From: a virus | Length of the DNA: 64,000 bases | Reading direction: 5' to 3' (one strand) | Virus record (IMG/VR): IMGVR_UViG_3300043540_000178 | Coordinates: 1-64,000 of that record | Part shown: piece after piece, positions 2,304 through 40,943 of the stretch | Layout of the letters: every line of letters starts with the position of its first letter | How positions within the stretch are numbered: position 1 is the first letter of the stretch | The notes under the pieces: generated by a model | Databases searched by the model: none | Seen by the model: the letters and a program-made list of their open reading frames with translations, nothing else | What the model was told of the DNA's origin: nothing | Translations under genes and position numbers: made by a program

Positions 2304-2753
2304 ATGGCTCGCAATTATCATCAAGGTGTTTATACACCAAAAAATCCACAAAAGTATATAGGGAACCCAAATAATATAATATATAGAAGTTCATGGGAGA
2401 AAAAAGTTATGTTGCGATTCGACACCACTCCATCTATCTTGAAGTGGTCTAGCGAAGAGTTTGTGATTCCATATGTATCACCAGTTGATGGTCGTCCGCA
2501 CAGATATTTTGTGGACTTTGTGGTTGAATATAAGACAAGAGATGGAAAGATCAAGAGGGCAGCGGTTGAGGTAAAACCAGATGCACAAACAAAGTTGCCA
2601 GCAACACCTAAAAGAATGACCAAGCAATTTATGGAAAGTGTTGAGACATATGCTGTCAATCAGGCGAAATGGGAAGCAGCAAAGAAATGGTGTGCCAATA
2701 ACGGGATGGAATTTATCATTCTCACAGAATACGATTTGGGCATTAAGAAATGA
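2304..2753 (+). CDS. 4: Head completion nuclease gp4
   Basis: 149 residues, matching T4 gp4 (about 150). Visible family features are the N-terminal basic region ending in YRSSWEKKVM (about residues 28-37), a SPVDGRPHRYFVDFVVEY strand (about 58-75) and AAVEVKPDAQTKLP (about 85-98), the acidic/lysine pattern of the TnsA-like PD-(D/E)XK fold. The protein acts on packaged DNA ends before tail joining. Its stop overlaps the ATG of the next gene by 4 bp. Confidence 0.8.
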   Translation: MARNYHQGVYTPKNPQKYIGNPNNIIYRSSWEKKVMLRFDTTPSILKWSSEEFVIPYVSPVDGRPHRYFVDFVVEYKTRDGKIKRAAVEVKPDAQTKLPATPKRMTKQFMESVETYAVNQAKWEAAKKWCANNGMEFIILTEYDLGIKK

Positions 2754-3313
2754 CTAGTTTATATGACGAAGTAAAGAAAAATCCTAAATACAATCCCAAT
2801 AATTCTGTCAATTGGTTTAGACAGAATGTAACTGACCATTTTAGAAACTTGGGTCAGATGCAATTCATGGATAGAAACAAGATGTTTCAAACAAGAATGG
2901 TTGTACCTGGTGATATGTGTTTCTTTGGTTACGATCCAAAATATAAACAAGAACTGCCTTATTATGACAAGTTCCCGTTGATATTACCATTTTCCGTTGA
3001 CGCAAAACATTTTATTGGTATCAATTTGCATTATCTTCCACCACCTGTACGAATCCGTATCCTTGATAAACTAATTATGACTGCAACAGATAAAGATATT
3101 CCAGATAAGATGAAAGTTCAAGTATCATGGAAGATATTGAGTGCCTTGTCTGAAAATAAAGCAATTCAACATTCAGTTAAGAAATATCTTATCGGGCATG
3201 TAAAAACAAGGTTTATAACTGTACCAACTAAAGAATGGCCTATTGCAGTTTTCCTTCCCCTTGCAAGATTTGCTAAGGCAGATGAAGCAACTGTCTGGAG
3301 AGGAATTAAATGA
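2750..3313 (+). CDS. Conserved virion/morphogenesis protein, function unknown
   Basis: 187 residues, basic, no membrane segment. It has a proline-rich central block with FFGYDPKYKQELPYYDKFP and FIGINLHYLPPPVR (about residues 62-105). The 4-bp overlaps on both sides (ATGA with gp4 and with gp54) place it firmly in the virion assembly operon. I do not recognise a named T4 counterpart; a structural or DNA-end role is inference from context only. Confidence 0.6.
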   Translation: MTSLYDEVKKNPKYNPNNSVNWFRQNVTDHFRNLGQMQFMDRNKMFQTRMVVPGDMCFFGYDPKYKQELPYYDKFPLILPFSVDAKHFIGINLHYLPPPVRIRILDKLIMTATDKDIPDKMKVQVSWKILSALSENKAIQHSVKKYLIGHVKTRFITVPTKEWPIAVFLPLARFAKADEATVWRGIK

Positions 3314-4239
3314 GTAGTAGTTTTCAAAACAACTTACTTGGTGCAGGTAAGAATTGGTTAATCAATAAAGGTTCCAATTTAATCTTCGGTACACCGAATG
3401 AAGGAAATGCAAACCGACAATCAACTGGTGGTATGCAGCGTTTCCTTACTGAGATTAATTCTGATAATGGTTTTTATCGGGGTGTATTTTTTGAAGTATA
3501 TATACATGGGTTGCGTGATATACAATCTGAATATTCAACCAACTTATTATGTCATAGAGCATCATTACCCGGTTTCCGTTTGGAAACAAAAAATAATATC
3601 ATTTACTCTTTGCCATATGAAACTCCTGTTGGTGTTGAATTTGATCCTGCATGGTTCACGTTCTACATTGATAATAATTTCATAGTAAATAATGCAATAT
3701 GGCAATCAACATTCAATAGTACAGATGCAACAATAGGTAGAATAAATCCTACTAGTTGGTCACCAAAATATCGAGATCCGGCAAATTTGTTGAACATTGA
3801 AATTGTGGCATTCTCACCAGATTTTCAACAAACATCATCAAATCCAACAAGTGCATCCAATTCAAACCAAAATAATGTTCAATATAATGGTGAATCTAAA
3901 ACATGGGATGGCCTACCAATTCTTGCACGTTATGTACTGAATAATTGTTTTTTCAAAACTGTACAACAAACACCAGTTGCATGGGATGCCCACAATGACA
4001 TATCAACACTGACTATTGAAGTATCTTATGAATGGTATGATGCATATTATCCTAATACAGGGGCTCGACTTGCATCAAATGATATTAAAACCGCACCTGC
4101 TCCATTGAACTTTGACACCATTATAACTAAATATCCTGCTTTGGGAATTGCTTATGATGCAGCTAAGAAAACTATTCTACAAAATCCTGCAATAATGAAC
4201 AATCCATTGCTAAATCAAGGAAGTCAATTCTTACCATAA
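3310..4239 (+). CDS. 54: Baseplate tail-tube initiator gp54
   Basis: 309 residues; T4 gp54 is about 320. It has the tail-tube fold signature FEVYIHGL followed about 20 residues later by LLCHRASLPGF (about residues 60-94), and the late YEWYDAYYP strand. gp54 binds the gp48 cap and primes polymerisation of tube and sheath. It is coupled to the upstream gene by a 4-bp overlap; the glutamine/asparagine/serine linker near residues 178-197 looks like an insertion. Confidence 0.75.
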   Translation: MSSSFQNNLLGAGKNWLINKGSNLIFGTPNEGNANRQSTGGMQRFLTEINSDNGFYRGVFFEVYIHGLRDIQSEYSTNLLCHRASLPGFRLETKNNIIYSLPYETPVGVEFDPAWFTFYIDNNFIVNNAIWQSTFNSTDATIGRINPTSWSPKYRDPANLLNIEIVAFSPDFQQTSSNPTSASNSNQNNVQYNGESKTWDGLPILARYVLNNCFFKTVQQTPVAWDAHNDISTLTIEVSYEWYDAYYPNTGARLASNDIKTAPAPLNFDTIITKYPALGIAYDAAKKTILQNPAIMNNPLLNQGSQFLP

Positions 4240-4275: not shown

Positions 4276-4968
4276 ATGTTACCACGTTTAGAATTACCTA
4301 GCTATGAAGTGAATATGCCATCAGATGGTCGTTCTGTAAAGTTTCGTCCATTCACAGTAAAAGAAAGAAGCATTTTATTGGTTGCATTGCAGAGTGAAGA
4401 TACTAAGAGTATTTTGAATGCCATCAATGAATTGTTCAAAGTATGTACATTTGGTGTATGTGAGTTGGAGAAAATGCCAATTGTTGATTCTGAGTATCTA
4501 TTCATTCAGATCAGAAATAAATCAGTTGGTGAAGAGTTGGAAGTTACTCATACATGCTCTTGCAAGAATAAGAACGATATACGTCTTAATATGGACAAAA
4601 TTGAAATTGTTGGATCAGAAGTTAACAGAGACATCGAGTTAATGCCTAATGTTTGGGTTAAAATGAATTATCCGACCTTCAAGAACTCATCTATCCTTTC
4701 ATCTGAACCGACAGAAGATGAAGTTATTGCTGTAATTGCATCTTGTATGCATACAATAATCAAAGGTGATGAGGTTTTCAAAGTAAGTGAGTTTGCATTT
4801 GAGGATGTAAAAGAGTTCATATTGTCTTTAACACAGCCTCAGTTGGATAAGATAGAGAACTTCTTTGCATCACTGCCAAAAGTAGTTATTAATGGTGAAT
4901 ACACATGCAGACATTGTGATACACATCATGTAATTAGAATTGAGGGTCTTGAAAATTTTTTCGATTAG
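4276..4968 (+). CDS. 26: Baseplate hub assembly protein gp26 (zero-frame product)
   Basis: 230 residues; T4 gp26 is about 208. Matches the T4 gp26/gp51 baseplate family: an N-terminal LPSYEVNMPSDGR segment, SVKFRPFTVKERSILL (about 21-36), then a beta domain with paired cysteines CSCKNK (about 93-98) and a C-terminal CRHCDTHH (about 213-220) that together look like a zinc site. In T4 the hub proteins 26 and 51 act with gp29. The gene ends inside a slippery sequence at 4956-4962; see the frameshift entry. Confidence 0.75.
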   Translation: MLPRLELPSYEVNMPSDGRSVKFRPFTVKERSILLVALQSEDTKSILNAINELFKVCTFGVCELEKMPIVDSEYLFIQIRNKSVGEELEVTHTCSCKNKNDIRLNMDKIEIVGSEVNRDIELMPNVWVKMNYPTFKNSSILSSEPTEDEVIAVIASCMHTIIKGDEVFKVSEFAFEDVKEFILSLTQPQLDKIENFFASLPKVVINGEYTCRHCDTHHVIRIEGLENFFD

Positions 4969-5156
4969 GGATAGCAGGGGAGTCCTTAATTGAATACTAT
5001 CGTTTAAATCATATGCTGTTATTCAAACTTGAGAAAAGCAAGTTTACCCTGAGCGATTTAGAGAACATGATTCCTTACGAGAGGGAAATATATGTCCATC
5101 TCATATTAACAACTATTAAAGAAGAAATAGAAAAGGCATCCAATGGCAACCAATAA
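4276..5156 (+). CDS. Predicted gp26-gp51-like fusion made by -1 ribosomal frameshift
   Basis: A -1 slip at T TTT TTC (4956-4962) lets translation of gp26 continue for 64 more codons, to a stop at 5154-5156, giving about 293 residues. The extension contains YYRLNHMLLFKLEKSKF and MIPYEREIYVHLILTTIKEE, a helical pattern typical of C-terminal extensions of tail assembly chaperones, and it has no upstream ATG/GTG/TTG start of its own before an internal ATG at 5013. It overlaps the tape-measure start by 14 bp, the arrangement of lambda G/GT and tape measure H. If not a frameshift, a separate 47-residue product from 5013 is the alternative, but no Shine-Dalgarno supports it. Confidence 0.65.
4942..4989 (+). 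promoter_or_regulatory. -1 programmed frameshift signal
   Basis: Three parts are in register with gp26. An internal Shine-Dalgarno-like GAGGG lies at 4942-4946, 9 nt before the slip site. The heptamer T TTT TTC lies at 4956-4962 in the zero frame. A stem TTAGGGA/TCCTTAA (4965-4971 with 4983-4989, one G-U) follows 2 nt later, or 4 nt later if only its inner five pairs form. The zero-frame stop is at 4966-4968. Confidence 0.65.
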
Positions 5157-7221
5157 AAAGCCAACCTATCCTAGAAATGAAGCATTATTCATCCGAATCA
5201 CTGACGATGAAGGATTGAAGGTAGTTAAAGAGGGCAGTGTTTGGACTTATTGGAGAGGTGATTCTACAAAAGATCCTTCCTACGGAAATGACAAGTATTT
5301 GATTATCTCAAATAAAGTTCGTAGTGATTTAACACTTGCAATGTTACAAAACAAGTTCGAACTTAGTGATAAAAATGACTTCCCGCCATACATTCCAAAG
5401 AAACAACGTGACAAAGAAGCAAAAGAAATTGAAGATAACGTTCAGGAAAAAGCAGCGGCGGAACGTGCTGGATCAAATACAAACATAAACACAAAAACAC
5501 CACCTCCAAGAGCATCTAAGTCAATTAATAATTGGGCAAAGATGCATGTACCAGCATCCTCTACAACATCAACTCCTCCTTCATCAAAAGGTAAAGCTGG
5601 AACCGGTTCATCATTTGTCAAGAGGGGCAGAGAAGATAAAGAACGACCAGACATGCGTCCTGATTATGGTTCATTGAGTGAAGCACAGTTTAAGTTACTA
5701 TTCAGTATTGCATATCAAGTAAAAACTGGATCATCAACAGGAATTGCCAAAGAATGGGCATCCATGGATGATAACGACAGAAAGAGATATGTAGAAGAAT
5801 TCATTGAGTTTGACCTTATTAAAAAGAATGTACCAGCTGAATTGCTGCCACCATTGGACATCTTGAGGAAGATACCAATTATTGCAGCAGACAGAGAACT
5901 AATGTACTACTTTGAGAAGAAACTGGGAGCAAAAAAACCAGAAGAACAAAAGAGTACTTTAAAAAACAAAATAGTTACATTTGCCAATGGACTAAGTTTC
6001 AATACTGGCTCACTTCCTGTATCATTGCGGGCTGCGTTTGGTGTTAGCAAATTAGCAGTTAAAGGTACAATGACTGCTGCAAAAACAATTAGCAATCTCT
6101 TATCCGCAGACAGCAAAAAGAATACAGATGAAGAATTTATAAAACAAACTAGAGAACAAGCATCTCAAAAAGAATCAAAGTTGAGTAGTTTGGGTAGTTT
6201 CATTTCAGGAGTTGGTAGTGGTGTTAAAGAGCACTTTACACCATCGGAAGAAGACAAAGCAATTAACAAAGAAATGTTCAAATTGATTGCCGCTGGATTA
6301 AATAACATCGCATCCATCCTTAAAGATCGTCTGGTCAAGAAAGGACCATCTGAAGATACAACTCATACTGCTGCATCTAATGTTGAAGGCATGGATAAAG
6401 ATGCAAATTCATTCAATGAAGCTCATGCTGCATCTTCACATGAGGAAAGTTCAACTACTACTGACCAGGGCAAAGGTGAAAATGTTTTCTCTAAAATGAT
6501 TATGCGTTTGTTATCACCATTAAATTTTCTTGGTTCATTACTAATTAAGTTGGGTGGCGCAATTAAACCTCTCTTGAGTCTATTTGGCAAATTGGGATCT
6601 TCACTTATTGGAGTATTAGGTAAAATTGGTAGTGGTATAGGATCAGTTGCAGGTCGTGCACTGGGTGCCGTGGCGGGTATAGGTACAAGTGGTTTATTAG
6701 GTATTGTTTCGGCTGGAACTGCAGGTTATGCTTTAGGATCATATCTAAATGAGAAATTTAACTTATCTGATAAAATCTCAGATGTTGCAATGAGTTTGTT
6801 TCATGGTGATGATACTGTATCTACAACTTTAATACCTAATACACCACAGCAATCAACACGGAATAATACACAACATCAAATACTTAATACATCCAAACAA
6901 TCAACACAAAATAAATCACAGCAATCAACATGGAATAATACATCACAACAATCAACACAAAATAAAGCCCGCAATTCCAATTCATCAAGTGAGTTAGAAG
7001 CTGCATCAAAACAAAATGCAGTTAAAGTCAACAACGCGGAAACTGTAAGAAATGATGTTGTTGACAACAAACAAAAGCAAGAAACCAAACAAATTATTGA
7101 TGCATCAAAGAACAACAATACAATTATTCAACAACAGTCTGCATCAATAAATCGCATATCACCTAGGACACAAACTAGTTCATTGCAGAAATTCATAGAA
7201 TCAAGAGCAGTATTCGCGTAA
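5143..7221 (+). CDS. 29: Tail tape-measure / baseplate hub protein, gp29-like
   Basis: 692 residues, longer than T4 gp29 (590). The N-terminus is globular, followed by charged low-complexity (about 95-180) and a long helical region. A glycine-rich hydrophobic block runs over about residues 448-545 (repeated LLSLFGKLGSSLIGVLG-like segments), as in tape measures that insert into the host membrane. The C-terminal 110 residues are Gln/Asn/Ser/Thr repeats around QSTQNK. Assigned from position directly after gp26 and its extension, size and composition, not from a catalytic motif. Confidence 0.65.
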   Translation: MATNKKPTYPRNEALFIRITDDEGLKVVKEGSVWTYWRGDSTKDPSYGNDKYLIISNKVRSDLTLAMLQNKFELSDKNDFPPYIPKKQRDKEAKEIEDNVQEKAAAERAGSNTNINTKTPPPRASKSINNWAKMHVPASSTTSTPPSSKGKAGTGSSFVKRGREDKERPDMRPDYGSLSEAQFKLLFSIAYQVKTGSSTGIAKEWASMDDNDRKRYVEEFIEFDLIKKNVPAELLPPLDILRKIPIIAADRELMYYFEKKLGAKKPEEQKSTLKNKIVTFANGLSFNTGSLPVSLRAAFGVSKLAVKGTMTAAKTISNLLSADSKKNTDEEFIKQTREQASQKESKLSSLGSFISGVGSGVKEHFTPSEEDKAINKEMFKLIAAGLNNIASILKDRLVKKGPSEDTTHTAASNVEGMDKDANSFNEAHAASSHEESSTTTDQGKGENVFSKMIMRLLSPLNFLGSLLIKLGGAIKPLLSLFGKLGSSLIGVLGKIGSGIGSVAGRALGAVAGIGTSGLLGIVSAGTAGYALGSYLNEKFNLSDKISDVAMSLFHGDDTVSTTLIPNTPQQSTRNNTQHQILNTSKQSTQNKSQQSTWNNTSQQSTQNKARNSNSSSELEAASKQNAVKVNNAETVRNDVVDNKQKQETKQIIDASKNNNTIIQQQSASINRISPRTQTSSLQKFIESRAVFA
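6845..6967 (+). repeat. Degenerate CAATCAACA repeats in the tape-measure gene
   Basis: The motif CAATCAACA followed by A/T-rich filler recurs about five times and encodes QQST-type units (QQSTRNN, KQSTQNK, QQSTWNN, QQSTQNK). Such a segment can change length by slippage or recombination. Confidence 0.6.
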
Positions 7222-14527: not shown

Positions 14528-14535
14528 AACCATTT

Positions 14536-14612
14536 GGAGAACGTGCCCAGATTCGAACTGGGGTTGACCGGATTTGCAATCCGGCACATCGCCACTCTGC
14601 CACACGTTCTCC
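14536..14612 (-). tRNA. tRNA-Cys (GCA)
   Basis: Reverse strand GGAGAACG...CGTTCTCC with a 7-bp acceptor stem, anticodon stem CCGGA/TCCGG and loop TTGCAAA, canonical T loop TTCGAAT. The 3' CCA is not encoded. Confidence 0.9.
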
Positions 14613-14653
14613 AAATAACTCATGTACATTGATACTGGAATAAAATTTGTATA

Positions 14654-14728
14654 TGGCACCCTCGGAGAGATTCGAACTCCCGTTATTCCCATTAGAAGTG
14701 GGATGCCTTTCCACTAGACTACGAGGGC
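14654..14728 (-). tRNA. tRNA-Arg (TCT)
   Basis: Acceptor GCCCTCG/CGAGGGT, anticodon stem TCCCA/TGGGA with loop CTTCTAA, T loop TTCGAAT, encoded CCA. It reads AGA, a codon that is rare in many hosts and frequent in AT-rich phages. Confidence 0.9.
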
Positions 14729-14754
14729 ATTTTTATTGGAATTAAATATTCAAC

Positions 14755-15183
14755 TCATGTTAATTTTAGCCGCAATGTCTCCAGTGCGTAATTGCTTACT
14801 AAGTGAAATTGATACTTCCTCACAGCTTCATCTTGCATCTCCTTCAACCATTGGTTATCATTTTCGGCGAAGAGTGCGTCATCTGCAATCTTCAATCCAC
14901 AATTATTTTCTGCGGCACTATTAACCATTGCCTGAAGCGCATGTGTCAGCCTTGCAACTCGTAAGTTGAGTGATTTGATTTTTTCTTCTTGATCGGATCG
15001 GTTTTGACTGCTACTACAAAACGGACATTGTCCATCAGCGCAATCTTCCTGCTTTACAGCTTCATAGAAGGCTTGAAGTTCTTCTGGTGTAACTGTTAAA
15101 TAGTCACCTTGGCTGTTTAGAGGTGATACTGAATTTGGATTTATACGTTTGCATATCTGCACCATCAGTTCAGTTGCATTCAT
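14755..15183 (-). CDS. Unknown protein with CPFC motif and coiled coil
   Basis: 142 residues. Region 45-58 has CADGQCPFC, three close cysteines but no clear second pair for zinc, followed by a predicted coiled coil (EEKIKSLNLRVARLTHALQAM, about 65-86). The rest is helical. Lies between the tRNA-Arg gene and the deoxyribosyltransferase-like gene in an accessory block. Not recognised. Confidence 0.55.
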   Translation of the reverse strand: MNATELMVQICKRINPNSVSPLNSQGDYLTVTPEELQAFYEAVKQEDCADGQCPFCSSSQNRSDQEEKIKSLNLRVARLTHALQAMVNSAAENNCGLKIADDALFAENDNQWLKEMQDEAVRKYQFHLVSNYALETLRLKLT

Positions 15184-15202
15184 TTTAATTCTCCTTTTGA
15201 AT

Positions 15203-15598
15203 CTAATTCATTGTTATTGCATTGAGGTATTGTGCTGCGCTTTCCAAGTTATCGAAAGTTGCACATGCATTGCCTTCTATTATTTGTGCTACTGCATTGA
15301 GTGAAGCCCATTGCTCATCTGTGAAACGCATACTTTCATCTTCACGTAGCCGAACGAATACCGTCCGACAAGATCGCTTATTACTATCATCAACCAATTC
15401 TGCAATCAAACTCACATCGGTCATCTTTGGTGTGATAACATACAAGCGAATATCACATTCTTTACGCTGGCGCAATTCTTCTGCAATACATTCAGATGAA
15501 CAATTATCAACTACAGGATTGAAGTAATCAATATCCAGCATAGGGATAATCTGATTACGCCAATTCGATTCTTTAGTCCCACCAAGAAAAACTTTCAT
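15203..15598 (-). CDS. Nucleoside 2-deoxyribosyltransferase-like protein
   Basis: 131 residues. Starts MKVFLGGTKESNWRNQIIPML and continues DYFNPVV, the signature of the short nucleoside 2-deoxyribosyltransferase-like family; later CDIRLYVITPKM matches its central strand. Family members exchange bases between deoxyribonucleosides or hydrolyse them. A role in nucleotide turnover or base modification is plausible but unproven. Follows a box-containing early promoter. Confidence 0.75.
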   Translation of the reverse strand: MKVFLGGTKESNWRNQIIPMLDIDYFNPVVDNCSSECIAEELRQRKECDIRLYVITPKMTDVSLIAELVDDSNKRSCRTVFVRLREDESMRFTDEQWASLNAVAQIIEGNACATFDNLESAAQYLNAITMN

Positions 15599-15689
15599 AT
15601 CTCAATCCCTTTGTAATTGTTTACCAATTGCATTCATTTTATTATCGGTTTCGATGCAAGATAGTCCATATAATTTCTGGAATGAGGTC

Positions 15690-15740
15690 ATCATATATGA
15701 AATGTTTAATTGTGCAAGAATAATTACTAACTATTTGAAT
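15690..15740 (-). promoter_or_regulatory. Sigma70-like promoter with upstream GTTA box
   Basis: Reverse strand: ATTCAAATAGTTA box, 10 nt, TTGCAC, 16 bp, TATGAT. Lies in the gap before the deoxyribosyltransferase-like gene. Confidence 0.75.
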
Positions 15741-15751
15741 CTTATAGTTAA

Positions 15752-16090
15752 TTATTCGCAACCGTAGCAAGCCATTTCATTAATACTATCTAGAGTCTGT
15801 GCTGCCTTGTGCTCAACTGCTTCTTCGAGATTCTTCTTTATAATTGAAAGAGCAGTGAATACTGCATCAATGCTCTTTCTTGCCATTTTGAGATTTTCAG
15901 AATCTTTATCAGATGGTGATGCAGCTTGGGCTATGTCATAGATCAAACCGAATCTGCGAATACCTGTATCTAAGTTACGCAAAGCAATCTGCACTTGGTC
16001 TCGGTCAATGATCTCGTAATCATCGTCAAAAGTTCGGAACATTGCTGCATCAGTAAGTGCATCTTTCATTATATTGTCATACATATCCAT
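15752..16090 (-). CDS. Unknown helical protein
   Basis: 112 residues, nearly all helix, acidic, ending in a MACYGCE tail with CYGC. The start follows AAGGAGAATTTA. Its gene is followed by a new promoter, so it ends an early transcript unit. Not recognised. Confidence 0.6.
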   Translation of the reverse strand: MDMYDNIMKDALTDAAMFRTFDDDYEIIDRDQVQIALRNLDTGIRRFGLIYDIAQAASPSDKDSENLKMARKSIDAVFTALSIIKKNLEEAVEHKAAQTLDSINEMACYGCE

Positions 16091-16167
16091 TAAATTCTCC
16101 TTAAAATTTCAATCTTTATACATGAACCCCTAACAGGATATCAAGATTTCCGGTGATTGCACCCAAA

Positions 16168-16413
16168 TCAGACCTTGTAATAACTGTCCAAGATGACTTG
16201 GAGTTCTTTTTTCACTCTCCGCGCAACCTCCCCCTTCCAAGAACCTGCATTGGAAAGAAAATAAGATACTATCCCTGCCGCCGCATCAAGATGATATTTT
16301 TCGGTAATATGTGTAAGGGTGGCCATTGCATTGAGATACGGTCTAGCATAAGGGCTAACATTGTGCCAATCGGTTTTAATTTCTGCTGCAATTGTATAAA
16401 GTGGACGGACCAT
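16168..16413 (-). CDS. Conserved small phage protein
   Basis: 81 residues. The pattern MVRPLYTIAAEIKTDW, PYARPYLNAM and IVSYFLSNAGSWKGEVARRVKKEL recurs in small proteins of many phages; the function is not known. Start preceded by AGGAGAG. First gene after the promoter at 16474. Confidence 0.65.
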   Translation of the reverse strand: MVRPLYTIAAEIKTDWHNVSPYARPYLNAMATLTHITEKYHLDAAAGIVSYFLSNAGSWKGEVARRVKKELQVILDSYYKV

Positions 16414-16473
16414 GATTAACTCTCCTATGTTAGTTTATCTTTTACACATGCATTATTGTGATTGCATGATGGA

Positions 16474-16524
16474 ATTATACATGGAATATTGACATGTGCA
16501 AACATAATTGCTAACTATTTGAAT
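16474..16524 (-). promoter_or_regulatory. Sigma70-like promoter with upstream GTTA box
   Basis: Reverse strand: ATTCAAATAGTTA box, 10 nt, TTGCAC, 16 bp, TATAAT. The box is identical to that at 15727-15740. The remaining 150 nt up to the tRNA-Ser gene shows only short inverted repeats. Confidence 0.75.
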
Positions 16525-16675
16525 CTTAAGGGTATCGAGATGAATTAATAAGTAGGACACTACAGCATCATAAATGCCAGGGTTGAGTGGAATTAAATAA
16601 TTTTCGTTATTGTCGCTTTCAGGTTATCTGGAACGTAACCTTATGGAGAGCCAGACATCAGAATGTAATAGTGTT

Positions 16676-16768
16676 TGGCGGAAGAGAGGAGAGTCGAACT
16701 CCTAAGGGTAAGGTCATTACCTCAACTGTTTTCAAGACAGGTGCCATCGCCATTTGGCTTGCTCTTCC
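16676..16768 (-). tRNA. tRNA-Ser (TGA)
   Basis: Acceptor GGAAGAG/CTCTTCC, discriminator G, encoded CCA, anticodon loop CTTGAAA, and the long variable arm expected for serine. 93 nt. Confidence 0.9.
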
Positions 16769-16810
16769 ATTGTTTCATTAAATAATACAATTATACTATG
16801 ACTGCACGTT

Positions 16811-16897
16811 TGGTGGGAGTGGAGGGACTCGAACCCACACACCATTTCTGATACGGACTTCTAAGGACCGCTCGGCTACCAATTACGACACACTCCC
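16811..16897 (-). tRNA. tRNA-Leu (TAG)
   Basis: Acceptor GGGAGTG/CACTCCC, A73, encoded CCA, anticodon loop CTTAGAA, long variable arm. One T-T mismatch in the anticodon stem and one in the T stem make it weaker than usual. Confidence 0.8.
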
Positions 16898-16913
16898 AAT
16901 AACAAATTAATAG

Positions 16914-17060
16914 CTACATCTTAATACCATGAGTGGTATCAAATAACTTTTTTGTTTCTACGTTTGATTTCCTGCGCATGGCTTTGAATGATTTTCCATG
17001 CACTCCACATTTTCTTTTCCAGCAATGAAGCTGAATCATGTTACGCAATTTCAACTTCAT
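16914..17060 (-). CDS. Small basic protein inside the tRNA cluster
   Basis: 48 residues; ATG preceded by AAAGGA at 7 nt. Strongly basic (WKRKCGVHGKSFKAMRRK), with two cysteines and histidines that could form a knuckle. It is embedded between tRNA-Met and tRNA-Leu on the same strand. A nucleic-acid binder is an inference from charge only. Confidence 0.55.
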   Translation of the reverse strand: MKLKLRNMIQLHCWKRKCGVHGKSFKAMRRKSNVETKKLFDTTHGIKM

Positions 17061-17112
17061 TTCTGATTCCTTTATGAGTGATGAACATTCATTAACGAGT
17101 TCACAATTAAAA

Positions 17113-17187
17113 TGGTTGCGGACGCAGGACTTGAACCTGCAACTATGGGGAATGAACCCATCGTGATACCAATTTCACTAATCCGCG
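17113..17187 (-). tRNA. tRNA-Met (CAT), initiator-like
   Basis: Position 1 C faces A72 (unpaired), and three G-C pairs (GGG/CCC) close the anticodon loop: both are marks of initiator tRNAs. The D stem has T11-A24, which is elongator-like. The loop is TTCATTC, so position 37 is T instead of A. CCA is encoded. Confidence 0.75.
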
Positions 17188-17194
17188 ATTGTTT

Positions 17195-17269
17195 TGGTGG
17201 GTCTTCAGGGGAACGATCCCTGCCTCCTCGGTTATGAGCCGAGCACTCTCACCAGTGAGTTACAGACCC
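17195..17269 (-). tRNA. tRNA with CAT anticodon (elongator Met or lysidine Ile)
   Basis: Acceptor GGGTCTG pairs with GAAGACCC with a mismatch near its base; anticodon stem CTCGG/CCGAG with loop CTCATAA; encoded CCA. The T loop reads ATCGTTC, with T54-A58 replaced by A54-T58. The amino acid cannot be decided from the sequence. Confidence 0.75.
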
Positions 17270-17298
17270 ATATCTTCAAATTGATGTGTAATGTTATT

Positions 17299-17375
17299 TG
17301 GTGTCCGAGATGGGATTCGAACCCATACTTAAGAGATTTTAAGTCTCTTGCCTCTACCAATTGCGCTACTCGGAC
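17299..17375 (-). tRNA. tRNA-Leu (TAA) with short variable loop
   Basis: Acceptor GTCCGAG/CTCGGAC, A73, encoded CCA, anticodon stem AGAGA/TCTCT with loop CTTAAAA, T loop TTCGAAT. At 77 nt it has no long variable arm, unlike bacterial leucine tRNAs. Confidence 0.8.
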
Positions 17376-17379
17376 AAGC

Positions 17380-17453
17380 TGGTAGGAGTGCAGGGAGTCG
17401 AACCCCAGCTAAAGGTTTTGGAGACCTTTGTGCTACCGTAACACTTCACTCCT
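17380..17453 (-). tRNA. tRNA-Trp (CCA)
   Basis: Acceptor AGGAGTG/CACTCCT, encoded CCA, anticodon stem AAGGT/ACCTT with loop CTCCAAA, T loop TTCGACT. Confidence 0.9.
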
Positions 17454-17494
17454 AATGATTTCTCATGCATCGCTTTATTCCATAATATACATTA

Positions 17495-17568
17495 TCGGCG
17501 ATGCTGGATTTGAACCAGCGATCTTCTGTTCCCAAAACAGACGGATTACCAAGCTTTCCCAATCGCCG
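17495..17568 (-). tRNA. tRNA-Pro (TGG)
   Basis: Acceptor CGGCGAT/ATCGCCG with C1-G72 as in bacterial proline tRNAs, anticodon stem TCTGT/ACAGA with loop TTTGGGA, T loop TTCAAAT, A73. The 3' CCA is not encoded. Confidence 0.9.
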
Positions 17569-17633
17569 ACAATGCATACTACTTAACATTTTAGTAATTT
17601 AATTACAATATCATTAGTTGTAGTTTAGGAAAC

Positions 17634-17718
17634 TGGTGCTGGAGGTGAGACTCGAACTCACGTAAGGTTTCCCTGGTGGCTTACAAAACCACTGCAATTG
17701 CCGCTATGCGACTCCAGC
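17634..17718 (-). tRNA. Class II tRNA, apparent Thr (TGT) anticodon on a Tyr-like body
   Basis: Acceptor GCTGGAG/CTCCAGC, A73, encoded CCA. D arm GCATAGCGGCAATTGC and a 14-nt variable arm are Tyr-like. With the canonical 5-bp stem GTGGT/GCCAC the loop is TTTGTAA, which puts TGT at 34-36; the GTA of tyrosine lies one base further on. Confidence 0.75.
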
Positions 17719-17730
17719 ATAATTTTAATT

Positions 17731-17806
17731 TGGTGCGGGTACGGCGGATTCGAACCCCGTCTTATAGATTGGAAGTCTATCGTGCAACCGGTAACACTTT
17801 ACCCGC
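17731..17806 (-). tRNA. tRNA-Gly (TCC)
   Basis: Acceptor GCGGGTA/TACCCGC, A73, encoded CCA, anticodon stem ATAGA/TCTAT with loop CTTCCAA. The T stem has one bulged G on its 3' side. First tRNA after the leader hairpins. Confidence 0.85.
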
Positions 17807-38162: not shown

Positions 38163-39848
38163 CTATTGACATGATAAACATTCACCTTTACTTGCTGCAA
38201 CACCTGCTTGTGTACGTACATAATACAAGCTCTTAATTCGTTCATCAAGAAATGCCATTTGATGAATTTGACTAATATATTCTTCACTTTCATTTGCATC
38301 AAAAAATAAATTCAATGATTGACTTTGACAAATATATTTTTGTCTGGTTGCTGCAAGTCTCAATATAACTTCTTGGTTAATTTCAAATGCAGTTTTGAAC
38401 ACTAATTTTTCATGGTCAGTCAACCAATCTAGATGTTGAACAGAACCATATTTATCTGCAATTTCTTTAACCAATTTTCGACTGTATTTATTGCGAGATT
38501 TCATTAAAGCATAAAATTGTGGGTTAATGACTTCCATTGAACCTCCAGCACCATCTTTTACAAAGCAATTTCCATAAAAAGGTTCAATGCCTTGTGATGC
38601 ACCGCCCATTAATGTTGCTGTACTCATAGTTGGTGCAATTGCAGTTCTATGAGTATTTCTAATACCAAAACCTGAACACCATTCAGGCTCACCCCATTGT
38701 TTTGCCATCCACGCTGAAGCCTCAAGCGATTTGTCATGAATATGTTTGAAGATTTCCATATTCTTCATATGCGCTTCAAATGACTCAAAAGGTATCATGT
38801 TCTTCTGAAAATAAGAGTGAAGTCCCATAACACCGAGCCCAAGTGCTCTTCCCTTTTCTGTGAATCTAACAGCTTTTTCTAAACCTTGTTTATTTTTTGC
38901 AAGGGCAATAAATTCAGATGCCACGCAATCAAGAAATATCGTTGCATTGAACACTGCATCTGTATCTTTCCATTCATCATAATATGCTAGATTCATTGAA
39001 CTCAAGACGCAAGTAAATGTGTGTGACTCATCCGAATGGAGTGTAATTTCAGAACACAGATTTGATGCTTTAACACTCAGCCCATGTTTTTTGTATGTTT
39101 CAGGATTTGCTCTGTTAACTTTATCAGGGAAAAAGAAATATCCTTTGCCTGATAGGAGCTTCAACTTCATAACTTTCTGATACCGTCTGATTGCTTCTTC
39201 ATCACCAGCATTCAATTTTTCAACGAATTTGTCAGTGATATTCCATCCGATGTTAGCATCGTCAGGATATTCTTTTACATAGTCTGCAATTTCATCAAAA
39301 TCATTATGGTCAATTTCTATATATCCAGCCCATGCACCTCTTCTGGCTGTACCTTGCGCAACATCGCGCATTGTCTGCAATAACATGGAAAAGACAGGCA
39401 ATGATCCAGATGCTGTTCCACCAATTGAAATTGGAGATCCTCTGTGTCTAATATCACCCAAATATCCAGATGTACCAAAACCTTCTTTTGTTAGAAGAGC
39501 CGATTCTAGGTTATGGGAATAGAATCCAAAAATGCTGTCCTCAATATAACCACCGGAACAACTGACTGGCAATCCTCTAGTTGTTCCCATATTTGCAAGA
39601 ACTGGAGTTGAAGGACTCAACCATCCATTCCAAAACAACTCAAAGAATTTCCCTTCCCACATATCAGGATCATCTGTATGCTTTGCTGCTGTCCGACAAA
39701 TTCTTTCTATTTGTTCTCTATATGATGATGCATCATGCAAATATTTTTGCTTAAAGAATCCCCATCCATCAGTTGTTACCCATTTTGGCAACAATCCTCG
39801 TGCTTGATGATCTTTGCGTTCTTCTGATAATTGTTCTCTTAGTGACAT
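38163..39848 (-). CDS. nrdA: Ribonucleotide reductase large subunit (NrdA, short form)
   Basis: 561 residues, against about 750 for E. coli and T4: the N-terminal ATP-cone and much of the N-terminal helical domain are missing. PSTPVLANMGT, SCSGGYIEDS (catalytic Cys region), NLCSEITLHSDESHTFTCVLSS (split: NLCSEI), APTMSTATLMGG and the C-terminal ECLSCQ thiol pair are present. It reduces NDPs to dNDPs together with NrdB. Lack of the ATP cone suggests no dATP shut-off. Confidence 0.93.
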   Translation of the reverse strand: MSLREQLSEERKDHQARGLLPKWVTTDGWGFFKQKYLHDASSYREQIERICRTAAKHTDDPDMWEGKFFELFWNGWLSPSTPVLANMGTTRGLPVSCSGGYIEDSIFGFYSHNLESALLTKEGFGTSGYLGDIRHRGSPISIGGTASGSLPVFSMLLQTMRDVAQGTARRGAWAGYIEIDHNDFDEIADYVKEYPDDANIGWNITDKFVEKLNAGDEEAIRRYQKVMKLKLLSGKGYFFFPDKVNRANPETYKKHGLSVKASNLCSEITLHSDESHTFTCVLSSMNLAYYDEWKDTDAVFNATIFLDCVASEFIALAKNKQGLEKAVRFTEKGRALGLGVMGLHSYFQKNMIPFESFEAHMKNMEIFKHIHDKSLEASAWMAKQWGEPEWCSGFGIRNTHRTAIAPTMSTATLMGGASQGIEPFYGNCFVKDGAGGSMEVINPQFYALMKSRNKYSRKLVKEIADKYGSVQHLDWLTDHEKLVFKTAFEINQEVILRLAATRQKYICQSQSLNLFFDANESEEYISQIHQMAFLDERIKSLYYVRTQAGVAASKGECLSCQ

Positions 39849-39866
39849 TATGCTCTTACCTTTAAG

Positions 39867-40868
39867 TTAAATCTCAAGTTTGTTAGACCAGATGAATCCT
39901 CGTTCATTCCAGTTTCTATGGTATTGGTTGCCAATCTTAGCGAAGAAATCATGCATTTTTGCAACTGTAATTCCCAAATAAAACCATTCTGCCACTGGAT
40001 TAGATGCAGGATTATTTTGTGTAGATAGTCCTAAATTCTGTAAACATAAATCAACTCGACTTTCAACAAAATTTTTCAATTGACCTTTTGTGATGCCTTC
40101 CATAGTTCCCTTCTCAAAAATCATATCTACAATTCGATGTTCATGCTCTGTTATGATCTTTGCAGCTTCATAGATTTTATTATAAAGTTTCTCTTGATCT
40201 TCAGGAAGTAAGCGAGCCTCATCTAAATGAGTTTTGAATAACCAGCAACCAGCTTCGTGATGCAAATTTTCATCGCGAACAGAAAAATCAATACCTGCAA
40301 CAATATTGATTAGCTTATTTTTACCTTGGCTCTGAAAATGTTTTAGAAATGCAAATGAAGAATATAGAACAGCACCCTCAAGCATGGCAAACACTGCCAA
40401 TGAATACAACTTATCTTCTCCACTTAAGGCATCTTCAATGAATGCAATGCGACTGCGAAGTGTGTCATCTTCAACATATGAATTATAAAACTCATCTGTG
40501 TTAAGATGAAGAAGCTCATTGATTTTGTTGTAGAAGGGGGCATGCACATTTAGTTCAAAGAAACTGAAACTGCTTGCCATACGTTCTATTTCAGGACGAG
40601 GATACCACTTGGCAATACAGTTGCCCCAATACTCATTACCGATAATCAGTTCATATTTGGTGAACACTTTTAATACAGTCAAAACACCATGGCGCTCTGC
40701 TTCAGTCATGTTGACTAAAATATCTTGAATGTCTTTTTCTACTTCAATCTCGGAATGTGTCCAGAAAACTGAGTTCTGAACATCTGCGAATGTAACTGCT
40801 TGTGGATAATCGTCTAGGGTATAAGTATCTTTTGGAAGGGTGATTTTTGGGGTTACAAGTGATTGCAT
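39867..40868 (-). CDS. nrdB: Ribonucleotide reductase small subunit (NrdB)
   Basis: 333 residues; ATG at 40868 after GAGG, an upstream TTG is less likely. Iron ligands: the helices with SFFELNVHAPFYN (Glu and His, about 86-98), EGAVLYSSFAF and ENLHHEAGCWL (Glu, His, about 202-212), and a radical Tyr near NSYVEDD or SFSFFE not assigned exactly. Forms the diferric tyrosyl radical that starts NrdA chemistry. Nineteen bp from nrdA. Confidence 0.9.
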   Translation of the reverse strand: MQSLVTPKITLPKDTYTLDDYPQAVTFADVQNSVFWTHSEIEVEKDIQDILVNMTEAERHGVLTVLKVFTKYELIIGNEYWGNCIAKWYPRPEIERMASSFSFFELNVHAPFYNKINELLHLNTDEFYNSYVEDDTLRSRIAFIEDALSGEDKLYSLAVFAMLEGAVLYSSFAFLKHFQSQGKNKLINIVAGIDFSVRDENLHHEAGCWLFKTHLDEARLLPEDQEKLYNKIYEAAKIITEHEHRIVDMIFEKGTMEGITKGQLKNFVESRVDLCLQNLGLSTQNNPASNPVAEWFYLGITVAKMHDFFAKIGNQYHRNWNERGFIWSNKLEI

Positions 40869-40943
40869 ACTGCCTCTGTTATTATTGAAATTAAACTGCA
40901 AAATATATATTGTCAGATTCCTATCTACACCACTAGAGAAAAA

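Follow-up and report, generated by a model that had tools for sequence, protein, structure and literature searches.

A probable −1 frameshift near the stop codon of a gp26-like gene that would yield two forms of a tail assembly chaperone in a T4-type phage

The gp26-like gene and the reading frame beyond its stop codon

The DNA analysed in this study, hereafter the window, is a stretch of 64,000 bases from a metagenomic virus record that is 70,863 bases long. The virus is of the T4 type, with genes for a DNA polymerase, a DnaB-like helicase, rIIA and an SbcC-like protein. All features of the locus lie on the plus strand. The genes leading up to it encode a gp4-like head closure protein (2304–2753; phrog_218, E = 1e-58), a gp2-like DNA end protector (2750–3313; phrog_429, E = 2.7e-49) and a tail tube family protein (3310–4239; phrog_45, E = 1.9e-12), the last of which lies where a gp54-type tail tube initiator would be expected, in a gene order that is the same in relatives. 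The gp26-like gene (4276–4968) encodes 230 amino acids and belongs to the gp26 family according to its matches to PF12322 (T4_baseplate, E = 1.7e-54) and phrog_150 (E = 7.4e-57). Its best identity to the gp26 of a named phage is 36.6%. Downstream lies a long open reading frame of 692 amino acids (5143–7221). Neither this frame nor its counterparts in relatives matched any profile as a tape measure, and its presumed identity as the tape measure protein is a label taken from gene position.

The zero frame of the gp26-like gene ends in GAA AAT TTT TTC GAT TAG. A canonical slippery heptamer, T_TTT_TTC, thus lies in frame at 4956–4962, and the stop codon TAG (4966–4968) follows 3 nt, or one codon, past it, a spacing found in most relatives. 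A Shine-Dalgarno (SD)-like GAGGG is located 9 nt upstream of the heptamer (4942–4946). The −1 frame segment (4956–5156) begins with FF RLGIAGESLIEYY and ends with NGNQ; it continues for 64 codons past FF to a stop codon at 5154–5156, where it overlaps the presumed tape measure gene by 14 bp. An overlapping A_AAT_TTT begins at 4953, and a slip at that position would give the same protein. These features agree with an original prediction made from the letters of this DNA, which had proposed a −1 frameshift joining gp26 to a gp51-like extension. The same prediction described the −1 frame as having no start codon of its own; the first ATG, GTG or TTG in this frame is an ATG at 5013, which lacks an SD-like motif.

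The product of the −1 frame matches phrog_634 (E = 2.5e-16), which is annotated as a baseplate hub assembly catalyst (gp51), as well as the end of phrog_150 (E = 2.8e-6), and corresponds to the C-terminal part of T4-type gp51. Its assignment as the extension of a long product of 294 amino acids in all also draws on the fused length and on its conservation in an alignment of 73 rows. Within the AT-rich window, an open frame of 66 codons is found at 6.4% of positions and is not rare, and the plus strand carries 29 copies of TTTTTTC. The window alone would therefore be weak evidence, and we judge the observation to be real from its conservation in relatives.

Conservation of the slip site, the extension and possible stimulators

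A scan of viral contigs with a single sequence gave no matches, whereas a profile scan succeeded and fetched 80 loci by gp26 similarity alone. Ten further named phages, which infect cyanobacteria, Pelagibacter, Vibrio and Aeromonas (no host being stated for one), were added, six picked through the extension and four through gp26, which together with the window gives 91 genes. An in-frame TTTTTTN occurs at the same place in all 80 relatives fetched by gp26 and in all ten further phages, and lies 0–2 codons before the stop in 89 of these 90; in Mosig, one of the named phages, the stop comes eight codons later. The first F codon is TTT and the preceding codon ends in T in every one of the 91 genes, and the seventh base of the heptamer is C in 70 of the 90 relatives. 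Elsewhere in these genes, an in-frame TTTTTTN appears at 5 of 17,472 positions; at this rate, 0.03 genes would be expected to carry it at any one in-frame position, compared with 91 of 91 at this site, although the relatives are akin to each other and we therefore attach no simple probability to the count. The proteins of the relatives are 21–38% identical to that of the window, and a heptamer shared despite this divergence makes a constraint at the nucleotide level plain.

The −1 frame is conserved as well. Its length is 58–70 codons wherever the contig suffices, and it encodes the same protein, which in the 73-row alignment shows conservation right from its start: FF is invariant and is followed mostly by R, [ILV], H8, L11, N18 and F19. 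When the extension alone was used as a tblastn query, 618 phage records were matched, mostly from the first residue of the query and right at the end of gp26. The alignment of gp26 and gp51 from relatives, which had been proposed as a check of the prediction, strongly supports it, with the slip site and the −1 protein conserved in 90 of 90. The window phage appears, by these comparisons, to be a divergent member among the T4-like phages with such a chaperone frameshift.

In 74 of the 91 genes, an SD-like motif precedes the heptamer by 4–20 nt, against a background of 9.6% in the rest of the gene, a comparison that ignores kinship among the genes. The glutamate codon that forms this motif is GAG in preference to GAA, both against general use (p = 2e-12) and against other E-G pairs (p = 0.0016). 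Across 63 dereplicated genes, the 50 nt past the heptamer show more structure than controls with shuffled codons (mean z −1.27, standard error 0.22, kinship again ignored), whereas other stretches in the same test are not or hardly enriched (z −0.42 to 0.25). The downstream RNA structure in the window itself is unconvincing. In place of the predicted 7-bp stem starting 2 nt downstream, we found a possible weak stem-loop directly past the heptamer (4963–4991), with 10 bp, three of them G-U pairs, between 4963–4972 and 4982–4991. Its energy is ordinary (−9.1 kcal/mol, z −1.1; 29 of 200 shuffles were as good), and it has no spacer, although 5–9 nt usually separate a slippery heptamer from its stem. 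For these two reasons, the stem is the weakest part of the original claim, and we do not rely on it as a stimulator.

In a wider set of phages, TTTTTTC is found in Cronobacter phage S13, Aeromonas phage AsFcp_4 and Vibrio phage nt-1, and TTTTTTG in a Rhizobium phage. Two observations were made at the margins of this pattern. In the Sinorhizobium phage Phosso, a jumbo phage of 469 kb, a gp26-like gene ends in CAT TTT TTC GAA TGA (near 3180–3190 of locus L102), with a long open −1 frame past TTTTTTC. Two gp26 genes of Ackermannviridae (L094, L101) and a similar gene of Vibrio phage D503 (L100) carry NTTTTC before the stop and no canonical heptamer, and their −1 frame continues past the gp26 stop; a different slip or reinitiation is possible in these three.

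The T4 group and the rival explanations

Phage T4 serves as a natural control. Its gp26 is a homologue of the short product and its gp51 one of the long product; however, they are encoded by separate genes on opposite strands, and the end of gp26 carries no slippery site. T4 gp26 comprises the PF12322 domain alone, whereas T4 gp51 aligns with this domain over its full length (E = 3.9e-52) and carries the extension in addition. T4 accordingly uses one gene for its short form, gp26, and another for the counterpart of the long form, gp51. The prediction that gp26-like and gp51-like sequences here are the short and long products of one start is therefore supported, with one refinement: T4 gp51 is more than the extension, as it also has a complete gp26-like domain. 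The same division is seen in T4-group phages, in which gp26 has no extension and a second gene carries the domain together with the extension. T4 gp26 ends in GLKEFFELL, with FF encoded by TTC TTT, which is not slippery, and the Klebsiella phages kv_tblp5 and Roth20 likewise use TTC TTT. In phages with a separate gene for the long form, then, the slippery codon order is gone although the amino acids stay. In a tree of 25 proteins, the gp26 and gp51 domains of the T4 group each form one well supported group across a moderately supported branch (85/85) from the frameshift-type genes. This tree fits a duplication in the T4 group but is no proof of one.

In several public records, a short gp51 is annotated as a gene of its own at this place, and the extension might be such a protein, translated from the ATG at 5013 or by reinitiation past the gp26 stop; an AGGGGAG at about 4976–4982 ahead of ATT 4989 could be read in the same way. 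We consider this very unlikely. In many genes, the possible starts come only after residues that are conserved, codons 3–17 contain no ATG, GTG or TTG in 29 of the 91, and a start with an SD-like motif within the first 25 codons occurs in only 8 of the 91. A separate small gp51 would also leave the universal TTTTTTN without explanation, and T4 gp51 is not the extension alone.

Slippage of RNA polymerase on the T run would add one U to some transcripts and yield an identical long protein. A run of six T is nevertheless short for transcriptional slippage, the seventh base is C in most relatives, and the upstream SD-like enrichment and the downstream structure point to the ribosome; we regard this explanation as highly improbable. 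Homopolymer runs are also prone to error, and the window derives from a metagenomic contig, so that a sequencing or assembly error at the T run might have split a single gene. Ninety other records, isolate genomes among them, are split at the identical site, which contradicts this explanation, and we reject it as having practically no chance of being correct.

Proposed mechanism and known systems

We consider it very likely that a programmed −1 frameshift gives rise to the short and long forms of a tail assembly chaperone, and sequence comparison argues for this through the conserved slip site, the conserved −1 protein and the SD-like motif enriched upstream across relatives. The gp26-like protein would be the short chaperone (TAC-N). 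We infer both the slippage and its rate: at T_TTT_TTC, a minority of ribosomes would slip back by one base, with both tRNAs re-pairing on TTT TTT, and the SD-like motif would stimulate this step. The slipped ribosomes would bypass TAG and read the 64 further codons to complete the long form (TAC-NC), which corresponds to T4 gp51. By analogy with lambda gpG and gpGT, both forms may cover the tape measure protein and bring in tail subunits.

Such a mechanism has already been published for T4-like phages and is therefore no novelty; the abstract of the 2022 study by Vladimirov, Gautam and Davidson reportedly names T4 genes 26 and 51. Our literature search for gp26 and gp51 with frameshifting returned unrelated phages only, and the prior work lay under the term tail assembly chaperone. 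In a passage of one article, Vladimirov, Gautam and Davidson (2022, Virology 566:9-15) are cited for poly-T slippery sites in the TAC-N genes of T4-like phages (PMC12846349), and a passage of another describes some T4-like phages in which a short gene and a longer, fused one take the place of frameshifting (PMC10885494). Lambda is the classical case of a −1 shift between two chaperone forms, which is widespread, and T4 was once named as an exception (PMC5009743). As proposed for the locus in the window, lambda gpG/gpGT has a short product, a −1 shift near the gene end and a long product; it lies upstream of the tape measure gene (PMC5009743), of which the presumed counterpart in the window is placed by position. 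The TAC locus of Vandenendeviridae and Andersonviridae also has a −1 shift at a poly-T motif upstream of the tape measure gene (PMC12846349), but the motif is GTTTTT and the phage families are others. No sequence relation between the lambda proteins and those of the window is shown. Their slippery sites differ as well, that of lambda being G_GGA_AAG. PDB sequence searches gave no useful solved relative, and we took weak matches to gp41 helices as chance.

New in this study are the extent and uniformity of the conservation, the enrichment of the SD-like motif and the difference in codon use from the T4 group. We lean slightly towards the view that a −1 shift at T_TTT_TTN, assisted by an SD-like motif some 9 nt ahead of it and, in many lineages, by a stem downstream, is the general route to the long chaperone in T4-type phages outside the T4 group, and that the T4 group replaced it with a duplicated, in-frame-fused gene, while its FF codons lost their slippery order. 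The results suggest that, in many cyanophage and Vibrio phage records, the short gp51 open reading frames and the gaps left without annotation are in fact where a frameshifted gp26 product ends. Frameshift and gene duplication also offer a clean natural comparison for how the ratio of short to long chaperone is set.

The minus strand of the window holds two further regions of interest. Eleven tRNA genes lie at 14535–17806, none of them for phenylalanine, the tRNA that would slip. At 38163–40901, an NrdB-like gene is followed by an NrdA gene without about 200 N-terminal residues, and both match one phage family of 977 amino acids that joins NrdB-like and NrdA-like parts.
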